Assembly: GCF_009708005.2 (NCBI RefSeq)
Contig: NZ_CP052757.1
Location: 1,488,001-1,552,000 of the forward strand
Direction: 5' to 3'
DNA from: Cellulosimicrobium protaetiae
Lineage (GTDB): Bacteria > Actinomycetota > Actinomycetes > Actinomycetales > Cellulomonadaceae
Length of the DNA stretch: 64,000 nucleotides
Shown here: in pieces, positions 22,030 through 54,996 of the stretch
Layout of the letters: each line of letters opens with the position of its first letter
Numbering within the stretch: position 1 is the stretch's first letter
The notes under the pieces: model-generated
Databases searched by the model: none
Told to the model about the DNA's origin: nothing
The model's input: only the letters and a program-made list of their open reading frames with translations
Position numbers and translations under genes: made by a program

Positions 22030-22126
22030 GGCGGTCGGGGCGCTCGCGCCGGGTCTACCACCCGCGGCTCGTCCCTCGCCGCTCCCGCCAGACCCGCCAC
22101 GACCCGGCGCGAGCGCCCCGACCGCC
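22030..22126 (+). ncRNA. Variable-stem hairpin element, copy 1
   Basis: Perfect 26-bp inverted arms (22030-22055 and 22101-22126) enclose a 45-nt core: TACCACCC, a 5-bp stem GCGGC/GCCGC around the loop TCGTCCCTC, then TCCCGCCAGACCCGCCAC. The unpaired segments nearly match copies 2 and 3, while both stems differ but remain fully paired. It lies between convergent genes, in the 3' direction of the MFS gene. It could act as a bidirectional terminator or a structured 3'-UTR RNA. No T-run follows. Confidence 0.75.
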
Positions 22127-22176
22127 CTCGTCAGGTCATCTCGTGCGGGCGCCCCGGTCGTGCAGGACGGGGGGCG

Positions 22177-23319
22177 TCAGACGAGGTGGCTGACGACGTG
22201 GTCGACGCAGGCCGTGAGGGCGCGGACGTCGTCGGGCTCGATCGCCGGGAACATCGCGACGCGGAGCTGGTTGCGGCCCAGCTTGCGGTAGGGGAAGACG
22301 TCGAGGACCCCGTTCGCGCGGAGCGCGGCCACGACCGCGGTCGCGTCGATCGCGTCGTCGAGGTCGATCGTCCCGACCACGGTGGAGCGCTGCGCCGGGT
22401 CGGCGACGAACGGCGTCGCCCAGTCGCGTGCCTCGGCCCAGCCGTAGAGGTGCTTGGCGGACTCGGCCGACCGGGCCGCGGCCCACGGGAGGCCGCCGTT
22501 GCCGAGGATCCACCCGACCTGCTCGGCGAGCATGACGAGCGTCGCGATCGCGGGCGTGTTGAGCGTCTGGTCCAGGCGCGAGTTCGCCGCGGCCGTGCGC
22601 AGCGACAGGGACTCCGGCACCCAGCGCGTGCCGCTCGACTCGATCTCCTCCGCGCGCGCGAGCGCGTCGGGCGAGCACAGCGCGAGCCACAGCCCGCCGT
22701 CCGACCCGAAGACCTTCTGCGGGGCGAAATAGTAGACGTCGGTCTCCGCGACGTCGACCGGGAGCGCACCGGCGCCCGAGGTCGCGTCCACGAGCGTGAG
22801 CGCACCGCGCTCGCGCGAGCCCGGGACGCGACGGACCGGGGCGATGGCGCCGGTCGAGGTCTCGTTGTGCGGCCAGGCGTGCACGTCGACGTCGTCGGCC
22901 GGCTCGGGCAGGGCGACGGACCCGGCCGGGGCCGTGAGCACCTGCGACGGCTCGAGGAAGGGCGCGGCCGTCGTCGCGGCGGCGAACTTGGCGCCGAACT
23001 CGCCGAAGGCCGCGTGCTGCGCCTTCGTGCGCACGAGGCACGCGGTCGCGACGTCCCAGAACGTCGTGGAGCCGCCGTTCCCGAGCACGACCTCGTACCC
23101 GTCGGGCAGCGAGAAGAGCTCGCCGAGACCTTCGCGCACGCGCCGCACGACCGAGCGGACCGGGGCCTGGCGGTGCGACGTCCCGAGCAGGGAGGCGCCG
23201 GCGTCCGCGAGGGCGCGGACCTGCGCGTCACGCACCTTGCTCGGCCCGGACCCGAAGCGGCCGTCGGCGGGCAGCAGGTCGGCGGGGATCGTGATCGGGA
23301 CGTTCGCGGGCTCTGGCAC
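22177..23319 (-). CDS. serC: Phosphoserine transaminase
   Basis: PLP enzyme of 380 residues converting 3-phosphohydroxypyruvate and glutamate to phosphoserine in serine biosynthesis. The actinobacterial SerC start ([21 protein letters not shown]) fixes the N-terminus close to the GTG at 23319. A GTG at 23328 adds three residues. The PLP lysine is K202 in [12 protein letters not shown], and HNETSTG and VGTIDLDD also match the family. It is convergent with the MFS gene across the hairpin element. No other serine genes are near. Confidence 0.95.
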
Positions 23320-23558
23320 GGACGCCACCCTACGCGTGCCGCGCGAGCGGGCGCAGCGAGGCCCGGGCCGGCGCGGCGACCCGTACGGAGCGGTCGTCAC
23401 CCACGCCCTCAGGAACTCTCCACGGGCTCCCCAGTGCGCTGCCCGGAAGGTGTCATGAGTGCGTCATAGACTGGCGCCAGCGGCCCGCCGGTGCGGGCAG
23501 GCGCCCCGCGGGAGCGACGGACGGGCGCCCCGAGCCGACGAGCGACTGGGAGCGTGAC

Positions 23559-53700: not shown

Positions 53701-54830
53701 TGCCCACCGTCACCCTCCTCGCCGACGGCTCGCGCCGTGACCCCTTCGTCACGACCTTCCTCGCCGAGCACGGGTACGACGGGGTGCTCCGCCCCGCGCC
53801 CCTGCCCCGGCCCGAGGCCCTCGTCCAGCTCGACCTCGTCGACGGTGCCGGGATGCCCGACCCCGCGTCCGGTGCGGTCGAGAGCACCCAGGCGGAGGTC
53901 GACCGCGTCGTCGAGGTCGCGATCGAGCACGCGCTCACGCGCCCCGACGAGTCCCTCGCGATCGTCACCGTCACACCCCTGCACGCCGACCGCATCCGCG
54001 ACGCGCTGCTCGTCGAGGTCAGGCAGAACCCCGCCCTCGCGGGGTTCTTCTCCGGCGCACGGTCCGAGCCGGTGGTCGTCGCCGACGTGTCCGGCGTGGC
54101 CGGCCTCGCACGGGACACCGTCGTCCTGTCGGTCGGGTTCGGCCGGACGCCCCACGGCCGCGTGCTGCACCGGTTCGGGATCCTCAACACGCCCGGCGCG
54201 GAGGCCATGCTCCTCGCGACCGTCGGCGCCTCCCGCCGCCGCCTGCACGTCGTCTCCTGCTTCACCGCGGGCGACCTCGACCCCGAGCGGCTGCGCGGTG
54301 CCGGTGCCCGGCTGCTCGCCGAGGTGCTCGACCTCGCCGAGCAGCGCAGCGGCGTCGCCGACCAGGTCACGCTCGGCAACGGCGTCGACCTCGGCGGCAG
54401 CCCCGACCGGCTCGTCCTCGACCTCGCCGAGCGTCTGTGGCGCGCCGGGCTCGTCGTCGAGACCGACTACGGCATCGGCGACGGCGACCGCGTCCCGCTC
54501 GTCGTCGGCCACCCCGACCTGCCGGGCGAGCTCCTCGTCGCCGTCCTCACCGACGACGCCGCGTACGTCGCCGAGCGCAGCGTGCGCGTGCGGGACCGGC
54601 AGGTGGCCGAGCGGCTCGAGCGCATCGGGTGGACCGTCGCGCAGGTGTGGTCCGCCGCGGCGTTCCTCGACCCCGCCAAGGAGGCCGAGCGCATCCGGCG
54701 GGTCGTGCAGGCCGTGCGCGACGAGCGTCTGCCCGAGACGGGCGGTGTCGCGCAGACGGGCGGCGGCGACCGGATCGTCGTCGTGCCGGTGATCGACGAC
54801 GACGAGCAGCACGGCGACGACGAGCTCTGA
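50733..54830 (+). CDS. Large SF1 helicase/nuclease-like protein with degenerate catalytic motifs
   Basis: Protein of 1365 residues. Its overall plan resembles actinobacterial SF1 helicase plus Vsr-like nuclease proteins. A variable N-terminal region precedes a RecA-like domain where SQRHVVDALASG is motif Q/Ia-like and the P-loop position reads DAPAGSDVAGT (406-416), lacking GK(S/T). The Walker B position reads VVLDAIEHAP (Asp949) instead of DEAS/DEAQ. REWRE/REQRG-type coiled segments lie between. The C-terminal 120 residues (about 1230-1350: VVETDYGIGDGDRVPLVVG, LLVAVLTDDAAYVAERS, RDRQVAERLERIGWTVAQVW) follow the DUF559/MTES_1575 endonuclease pattern but lack its Asp and Glu-x-Asp ligands. 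It is therefore probably enzymatically dead or strongly diverged. The GTG start sits behind both GGAGG and a leaderless-type -10. Confidence 0.75.
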   Translation: MNAAARTSSAARSVADPARLPANAPDGTDQPAAEADDTVTPSRPVLVPEPTTADLVDEAVARWRAGLVELAGGSSLADVALLGDAVVDLTAAHPSGVAQLFAGRPTRLSNLFREGGSLPAARRRARAVVVRAAEHAQRYGVAPTYLAIGVATWTQGVTSPSAEDDVAALARVTGRARAAVVPGEDPAVDDERPVAGAPDAGDEDPADRTTRPDAGHPAEGAVADTDDTPTSRTVRAPVLLRPLTVTPRGDGETDYELTLEPTAEINPLLARTLRAHGALLDPVTLARSTFTGAGFDPGDATRRITALGQAVLDDFDLTHRVLVGTFVHPGQVLVDDLDELAPALERHEVVAALAGDDASAAALAADLPTPRVGDADPVHERGAGDLDPSQRHVVDALASGSHLFVDAPAGSDVAGTLAAVVAEAAASGRHVLYVPGHRRAADALLARLDALGLGGLTLDVAPEPTWRETVSHRLLSAMAAEPELVDADAVERTRDALLGSRARLAGYIEALHLVREPWGVSAYDALQALARLTAERPAPDTRVRLTTEVVLAVGPQRDRAAAELREAALLGAFTARATTTPWYGAALTTAQEAHDALVRVERLRTHTLPQLRAQVQQVAERTGLTGATTLRQWAGQLTMLGGMRGTLDVFQPLIFERTAQDMVEATATRQWREQRGVEMGWFARRRLRRQARDMVRPGVRVPDLHAALVEVQAQRAVWQEQCPRGGWPVLPEGLSAIEDTHEAVRIDVEELEPALVGTPDGAGLLDTPLDALAARLDALAGDAEALDSLPARTAVLARLTGLGLGDLLTDLTERRVEPDLVGPELELAWWSSVFEQVLAQDQALAGQDGAGLDALARRFRDLDRDHVASLSAPVRAAVREHLGTAMRDHRDEAEDLFTELLEGRLVSLRETAEKHPAVLRRLRPVLVATPTLVPHLVPATRTVDLVVLDAIEHAPVELVLAALARGRQVVVVGDSRAASTSTVRDLSELLPTVTLLADGSRRDPFVTTFLAEHGYDGVLRPAPLPRPEALVQLDLVDGAGMPDPASGAVESTQAEVDRVVEVAIEHALTRPDESLAIVTVTPLHADRIRDALLVEVRQNPALAGFFSGARSEPVVVADVSGVAGLARDTVVLSVGFGRTPHGRVLHRFGILNTPGAEAMLLATVGASRRRLHVVSCFTAGDLDPERLRGAGARLLAEVLDLAEQRSGVADQVTLGNGVDLGGSPDRLVLDLAERLWRAGLVVETDYGIGDGDRVPLVVGHPDLPGELLVAVLTDDAAYVAERSVRVRDRQVAERLERIGWTVAQVWSAAAFLDPAKEAERIRRVVQAVRDERLPETGGVAQTGGGDRIVVVPVIDDDEQHGDDEL

Positions 54831-54892
54831 TCGGCCTTCTGGTTTGGGCGGCGGTCCGCTGGTCGGGCTCGCGGCTTCTGGTCGCCCTGGGT

Positions 54893-54996
54893 GCGGGGTC
54901 GGGGGACGTGCGCGCCGTCTACCATCCGCGCCGCTCGTTCCTCGCGGCGCTCCCGCCAGACCCGACCACGACGGCGCGCACGTCCCCCGACCCCGC
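54893..54996 (+). ncRNA. Variable-stem hairpin element, copy 3
   Basis: Perfect 27-bp arms (54893-54919 and 54970-54996) enclose a 50-nt core: TACCATCC, a 7-bp stem GCGCCGC/GCGGCGC around TCGTTCCTC, then TCCCGCCAGACCCGACCAC. The loop and joining segments match copies 1 and 2, while both stems differ and are compensated. It begins 62 nt after the helicase-like gene, in the same orientation, and is followed directly by a 21-bp array. Confidence 0.8.

Follow-up and report, generated by a model that had tools for sequence, protein, structure and literature searches.

A 64,000-nucleotide stretch of the Cellulosimicrobium protaetiae genome (contig NZ_CP052757.1, positions 1,488,001 to 1,552,000; hereafter the window) contains three copies of a long hairpin element, each lying 3' of a gene and reading in that gene's direction, as an initial annotation made from the sequence alone had reported. 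Copy 1 is preceded by a gene at 20655-22001 (+) and is flanked by an MFS-type gene, an assignment below all listed model cut-offs, and by serC; copy 2 is preceded by a gene at 30516-31814 (-) and lies downstream of an aspartate aminotransferase gene; copy 3 is preceded by a gene at 50865-54830 (+). The arms were located by an inverted-repeat search of the window, which agreed with the positions and perfect pairing given in that annotation (Table 1). Comparison by hand likewise reproduced its inner stems (GCGGC/GCCGC in copy 1, GCCGC/GCGGC in copy 2 and GCGCCGC/GCGGCGC in copy 3) and its arm differences, which amount to 9 of 26 positions between copies 1 and 3 and 8 of 26 between copies 1 and 2.

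From the outside inwards, the element consists of a left arm, TACCAYCC, an inner stem, the loop TCGTYCCTC, the stem partner, a joining segment (TCCCGCCAG, N, CCC, 1-3 bases and CCAC) and the right arm; the core consensus reads TACCAYCC, inner stem, TCGTYCCTC, inner-stem partner and TCCCGCCAGNCCC..CCAC. The core of 45-50 bases therefore combines two conserved single-stranded internal-loop sides with a covarying inner stem, mostly of 5-7 bp and ranging from 4 to 8 bases across copies, and a fixed terminal loop; within the window the element is 97-104 bp long, not counting a short 3' tail. Mismatch-free matches to TCCCGCCAGRCCC and to GTCTACCAYCC occur within the window at the three copies only. 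A covariance model returned the copies at E 6e-19 to 5e-18 and the next window match at E 0.15; these values are not independent, as the model includes copy 1 and relatives of copies 2 and 3. Among distinct arms of at least 10 bp, the mean length was 25.4 bp and 46 of 123 arm pairs were perfect; pairing is nearly complete in general, but arms are interrupted or short in some copies. Many copies have in common the core-proximal arm end, GGGTC/GACCC or CTCGGC/GCCTTCG. Searches with the covariance model also revealed core variants, with AACC, GTCC or TGCC replacing TACC and TCCAG replacing CCAC. Core invariance is overstated in the pattern-picked sequence sets because their patterns demand parts of the core, a bias shared by the single change among 153 unpaired positions compared between paired sites (no core was obtained for 3 of 10 site pairs, and unequal lengths led to omission of the 3' segment).

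The annotation had proposed a search for further homologues with covariation, and these were found: about 50 in the source genome of the window (G000, 4.78 Mb) and more in other genomes of the order. The pattern TCTACCAYCCN{4,14}TCGTYCCTC has 49 exact matches in G000 and its reversed form none; without the first T there are 50. The core pattern was present in 16 of 17 genus genomes, G000 counted (reversed control, 0), and in 28 of 150 family genomes, these 16 among them (control, 1). A looser pattern matched 12 of 396 order genomes and is not significant alone, as its reversed control also matched 12 genomes with one match each; the matches in two of the 12, G387 and G453, are arm-less and look like chance. 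The order-level distribution is instead carried by the covariance model, scored on at most 12 candidates per genome, which found the element in 20 of 396 sampled order genomes, 11 of 110 genera and six families. Two matches are weak: family f19 rests on G214 alone (E 6e-5), and G221 of family f13 is a similar case (E 3e-5). Among the matches listed, hosts include Cellulosimicrobium, Luteimicrobium, Actinomyces species and a record named Sphaerisporangium cinnabarinum. In the draft genome G006, 12 of 39 core matches lie at most 70 bases from a contig start; assemblies are therefore probably interrupted at these hairpins, and counts from draft genomes may be too low. The annotation had not recognized the element as a known class, and this held: in Rfam 15 at the gathering threshold, the element matched no family in the window or in eight related loci, and a search of copy 1 at E up to 10 gave two matches only (E 1.3 and 7.3), neither credible. 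A description of the element was not found in the literature searched, whose coverage stops short of subscription journals.

Across 73 diverse sequences, 15 of 19 pairs had changed on both sides, which bears out the proposal, made from three copies, of one architecture with conserved unpaired segments and covarying stems. Covariation was 0.481 compared with 0.137 in shuffled alignments, a value reached by 0 of 500 shuffles; 89% of cells were paired compared with 65% after shuffling, and slid controls scored at most 0.144. The count of two-sided pairs alone is unremarkable, since 80 of 500 shuffles reach 15. Because shared ancestry can inflate shuffle tests, orthologous sites were compared as well. 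At eight sites shared by G000 and G008, we observed 7 two-sided and 4 one-sided changes in 196 pairs, while independence predicts about 2 and 38 and the flanks are 10.8% different. This ungapped comparison used 10 of the 13 pairs taken as orthologous by both flanks; four of the eight sites kept belong to an arm type that we call subfamily A (see below), and one (L019/L213) contributes 5 pairs only. Two sites with large arm changes (L023/L214 and L034/L222) were set apart; their arm lengths differ, matched in both arms, and in a comparison without gaps their inclusion inflates the count, to 23 two-sided and 4 one-sided changes in 247 pairs. The three omitted pairs (L039 and two at L045) would, by eye, add 1 two-sided and 2 one-sided changes. 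Between the closer genomes G007 and G008, whose flanks are 3.3% different, 14 pairs of copies showed 4 one-sided changes and 1 two-sided change, with both states mispaired, in 365 pairs. At the copy 3 site the flanks are conserved, and the arms are 27 bp in G000 and 25 bp of other sequence in G005, G007 and G008, perfect in each. Outer-arm sequence is free and mostly differs between sites, with pairing kept; the arms are kept alike either by folding selection or by a copying process.

Gene context was taken from a simple purpose-made gene caller, with a Pfam check on ten proteins. Of 54 arm clusters, 44 were intergenic and 10 lay inside called genes. The intergenic clusters comprised 20 tandem sense, 17 convergent, 7 tandem antisense and 0 divergent placements, compared with 10 divergent gaps among the 31 gaps of at least 60 bp in the window; divergent placements numbered 6 of 118 in a coarser run and 3 of 116 in a redundant set. 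Within 200 bp, 25 of the 44 intergenic sites had only the end of a left gene of the same direction, in line with the position of the three window copies, 4 only that of a right convergent gene, and 11 both. In the first 12 bases past the 3' arm, T makes up 22% in sense, as compared with 6.6% on the opposite strand (64 clusters). The features of a terminator, that is, a stable hairpin 3' of a gene in sense, hold for most intergenic copies and fail for in-gene copies. Their placement in sense after genes, together with the asymmetry of the tail, suggests retention of many copies as transcript ends.

Over all loci, the gene caller gave 52 element-gene rows, in which the same genes recur across species. 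The ten in-gene proteins sent to Pfam, representing nine kinds (LigD twice), all have domains: LigD, methylcrotonyl-CoA carboxylase type, HrpA-like helicase, PolIII alpha type, thioredoxin/NHL, Fe-S, RNase H/AAA, Cu ATPase type and UvrD. The names HrpA and DnaE2 used for host proteins are our presumption from domain layout. In these proteins the core is read without stops in frames 0, 1 and 2, eight times in sense and twice in antisense; it lies between matched domains in LigD, the methylcrotonyl-CoA carboxylase type, the HrpA-like helicase, UvrD and RNase H/AAA, and elsewhere in the others. L002, L008 and L030 are the Pfam-supported in-gene copies of G000. A pure protein-coding repeat was rejected: inner stems of 4-8 bases break any single frame, and several frames are used. 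At the linker of the hrpA-like gene of G128 (L308) we found another long palindrome with a different core (AAGCCGTAGCGGAGG...CCGTGAGCGAG), and further hairpins are present there in other species, so this linker looks like a palindrome hot spot.

LigD was compared in all 17 genus genomes. Its core is in sense in 6 and in antisense in 7, and the remaining 4 lack it and show a shortened inverted repeat instead; by eye, two of the seven antisense forms also keep remnants of a sense copy or its arm. The frame is open through the segment in 16 of 17 genomes and shifted in G013. The LigD arms covary: between G000 and G001, 4 pairs have changed on both sides and 1 on one side, and two-sided changes equal or exceed one-sided ones in 12 of the 15 comparisons among the six sense copies. 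A terminator role cannot easily explain covarying arms inside LigD.

Folding of the sense strand as RNA predicts that G-U exceeds A-C among imperfect pairs. On the sense strand, arm mismatches were instead A-C rather than G-U by 35 to 18 and 54 to 16 in two sequence sets, by 61 to 16 on 123 distinct arms and 21 to 7 on 45 clusters (p 0.013), and by 76 to 36, or 41 to 22 in distinct contexts (p 0.023). Flanking transitions had no strand bias (45 to 41 and 80 to 68). The mismatch test thus does not favor a sense-RNA reading, and a simple sense-RNA helix is weakened by the A-C excess, although the five pairs next to the core reverse the trend (A-C 5, G-U 10). The minus strand, or a DNA-level process on both strands, fits the mismatches better and conflicts with the sense bias at gene ends.

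The sites occupied differ between species. In an alignment of the copy 1 site from 14 genomes, the element is present in G000 and G003, with other hairpins or none in the rest. At this site, core-less and nearly perfect hairpins of the CGACATGAGGGTCG... type that follow the same gene in other species (L137-L146) differ in both arms together, and fast covariation of 3' hairpins may therefore be general in the genus. Of 30 G008 copies, 7 can be paired with a G000 copy at more than 85% identity in both flanks, which means that many sites differ between the two genomes. Within G000, 33 of the 49 copies, including copy 2, share one arm type (subfamily A), and the other 16 have other arms. Subfamily A copies are nearly identical from site to site, which suggests copying; by eye, flanks are shared too. 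Units of a 21-base repeat (GAGGTAGAACCGTGGTC plus 4) sit immediately upstream of these hairpins and in some cases, in inverted form, downstream of them, again by eye; arrays of this second dispersed repeat account for 21 matches in the window compared with 0.2 expected. On the right side, TCACCTC occurs in 10 of 64 independent 60-base flanks and 0.2 times in shuffles; a short tail therefore seems to be part of the element. The annotation had excluded a transposon because the ends vary and the middle is conserved; against this, the family is dispersed, occupies different sites in different species and includes the near-identical copies of subfamily A.

Table 1. Coordinates of the element copies and associated repeats in the window.
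Feature	Position	Strand	Details
Copy 1, whole hairpin	22030..22126	+	outer arms 22030-22055 / 22101-22126, 26 bp, 100% paired
Copy 1, core	22056..22100	+	TACCACCC 22056-22063; inner stem 22064-22068/22078-22082; loop TCGTCCCTC 22069-22077; 3' joining segment 22083-22100
Copy 2, whole hairpin (subfamily A)	30306..30405	-	arms 30379-30405 / 30306-30332, 27 bp, 100% paired
Copy 2, core	30333..30378	-	TACCATCC 30378-30371; inner stem 30370-30366/30356-30352; loop TCGTTCCTC 30365-30357; 3' joining segment 30351-30333
Copy 3, whole hairpin	54893..54996	+	arms 54893-54919 / 54970-54996, 27 bp, 100% paired
Copy 3, core	54920..54969	+	TACCATCC 54920-54927; inner stem 54928-54934/54944-54950; loop TCGTTCCTC 54935-54943; 3' joining segment 54951-54969
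Stretch of ~920 bases	29599..30522		from alignment breaks; left edge 29568 against G008; ~105-116 bases instead in G005, G007 and G008; contains copy 2, 21-base arrays and another hairpin
21-base repeat arrays	4000-4077, 29626-29663, 29914-30014, 30435-30472, 35273-35331, 55068-55168		second dispersed repeat
Two 21-base units preceding copy 2	30435..30472	-	GAGGTAGAACCGTGGTC

Two further features of the window were recorded. The large gene before copy 3 partly resembles the anti-phage models ProA and Hhe, with scores under their cut-offs, and a c-di-AMP riboswitch (ydaO/yuaA, RF00379, 69.7 bits) lies at 24437-24597, upstream of a called gene at 24690.

The element is multicopy and patchy between species; its copies mostly lie immediately 3' of a gene and in its direction, or else in frame within one. 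We judge the chances slightly better than even that it is a dispersed palindromic insertion element resembling the Rickettsia palindromic elements (RPEs), which would be mobile, would be read through its unpaired core by a putative partner, and would often be kept as a transcript end. In this working model, a trans-acting factor would recognize one folded strand, either single-stranded DNA or RNA, via the unpaired core, so that the core would be the recognized part and the arms a scaffold. Any arm sequence would then suffice, which would explain fixed loops with free stems. Folding selection, template copying from one arm to the other, or conversion among copies might maintain the likeness of the arms. 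Copies landing 3' of genes in sense would be retained because they act as transcript ends or leave them undisturbed, and open-frame copies would survive mainly in interdomain linkers, as the element can be read through in several frames.

Several results weigh against this interpretation. No transposase or other partner was found, and the Y1 transposase domain (PF01797) was detected in 0 of 17 genus genomes, with 5 of 14 control genomes positive. A precise empty site with target duplication was not found at homologous sites, including LigD and the stretch around copy 2, and the LigD forms without a core resemble products of an imprecise loss of the hairpin tip rather than pre-insertion sites. 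Of 20 G007 copies compared with 30 of the 31 G008 copies, 15 match by both flanks, 4 by one and 1 by none; movement is therefore not frequent at that distance. Searches of 50,697 phage and 72,556 plasmid records with copy 1 gave no match, and the core pattern was not found in viral contigs. A dead relic would not need pairing as strongly maintained as that at orthologous sites, and a host function is suggested by the bias toward sense copies at gene ends.

In a different explanation, the element is a host regulatory RNA domain: a sense 3'-end hairpin, serving as terminator or as processing or stability signal, whose core binds a protein and whose copies spread by recombination and gene-end duplication and are individually selected. 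It draws support from the bias toward gene ends in sense (25 sites to 4 of 44), the absence of divergent placements (0, against 10 of 31 window gaps), the T content of the 12 bases after the 3' arm (22% against 6.6%), the changes at the eight G000/G008 sites (7 two-sided and 4 one-sided, against about 2 and 38 under independence) and the surplus of G-T over A-C in the five core-adjacent pairs (10 to 5). The initial annotation had likewise inferred a selected structure, in RNA or as cruciform DNA and perhaps a 3'-UTR signal, and the gene-3' sense position that it described stands; the A-C excess over whole arms (21 to 7, p 0.013; 41 to 22, p 0.023), with flanking transitions unbiased, and the covarying arms in LigD speak against a 3'-UTR RNA, and a pure RNA reading is incomplete because it does not cover in-frame gene copies in both orientations. 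In addition, the T-enriched tail is not a classical T-tract, and by eye this tail also follows LigD sense copies. Taken together, we regard a host RNA domain of this kind as rather unlikely. Less probable still is a mobile core that inserts into the loops of existing hairpins, the arms being old terminators. Such insertion would accommodate the many different arms, the core-less hairpins at some homologous sites and the LigD gene of G016, which lacks the core and has distal arms almost the same as in G001. It is at odds with the varying amounts of arm kept by core-less LigD forms, as expected of tip deletions, with the unrelated arms of the relatives' core-less hairpins at the copy 1 site, and with the core-adjacent arm end common to many copies. 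Dispersed palindromes near gene ends and a minus-strand GTAG at the core boundary recall repetitive extragenic palindromes (REPs) moved by a Y1 transposase of the REP-associated tyrosine transposase (RAYT) or IS200 type. Since Y1 was found in none of the 17 genus genomes but in 5 of 14 controls, and since size and architecture are unlike those of the 20-40 bp REPs (as described in the portion consulted of PMC3733652), we give a RAYT/REP system hardly any credence.

According to the available part of one account, RPEs are long-stem palindromic repeats of 105-146 bp that occur between genes and fused in frame into protein genes (PMC2229807). By description, the family resembles them as a multicopy long-stem palindrome of about 100 bp (97-104 bp in the window; 49 copies) with intergenic and in-frame gene copies, while it differs in phylum, in the fixed single-stranded core within varying, covarying arms, and in the strong sense bias at gene 3' ends. 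Judged by that partial account, a family that is dispersed and patchy, has in-frame copies in more than one frame and orientation, and has yielded no transposase appears closest to RPEs (PMC2229807). In those portions of the literature on such palindromes that were available, no description of fixed-loop/free-stem conservation was found. REPs, in the sections consulted, measure 20-40 bp, have short family-specific stems and GTAG or CGTC ends, and have proposed roles in termination and mRNA stability (PMC3733652); the present palindromes are dispersed like them but, on that partial description, unlike them in their 97-104 bp, long variable arms and fixed core, with Y1 found in 0 of 17 genomes. 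A very stable GC-rich hairpin just past the stop codon with mild downstream T enrichment is reminiscent of intrinsic terminators, whereas the conserved loop domain of 45-50 bases, the in-frame copies and the lack of a T run are not. Miniature inverted-repeat transposable elements (MITEs) such as Correia/NEMIS are short, non-autonomous, dispersed inverted repeats with conserved terminal repeats. The family is like MITEs in consisting of short, non-autonomous, dispersed inverted repeats. Unlike in MITEs, the arms are the variable part across subfamilies, although conserved within subfamily A; no target duplication was seen and no precise empty site found.

A bolder extension is possible, although we think it doubtful as a whole. 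The family may represent a hitherto undescribed class of structured, mobile nucleic acid of the Actinomycetota, in which a putative factor would read a rigid unpaired core presented on any long stem and mobilize the folded strand; copies would serve as transcript ends after genes and as ready-made linkers in multidomain proteins, in particular nucleic-acid enzymes such as LigD, UvrD and HrpA-like and DnaE2-like proteins, and each arm could act as the template from which the identity of the other is restored.

Conserved stems are the usual mark of small palindromic repeats. In this family it is the loops that are conserved, and the stems vary by paired changes; this pattern suggests that a folded strand is what is recognized, with the caution that covariation alone is no proof of RNA function. 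A single genus offers aligned copies after genes, in frame in both orientations, and as core-less derivatives at the same LigD site. Two questions are thereby made testable: how RPE-type elements spread without a visible transposase, and how the arms of long palindromes stay identical.

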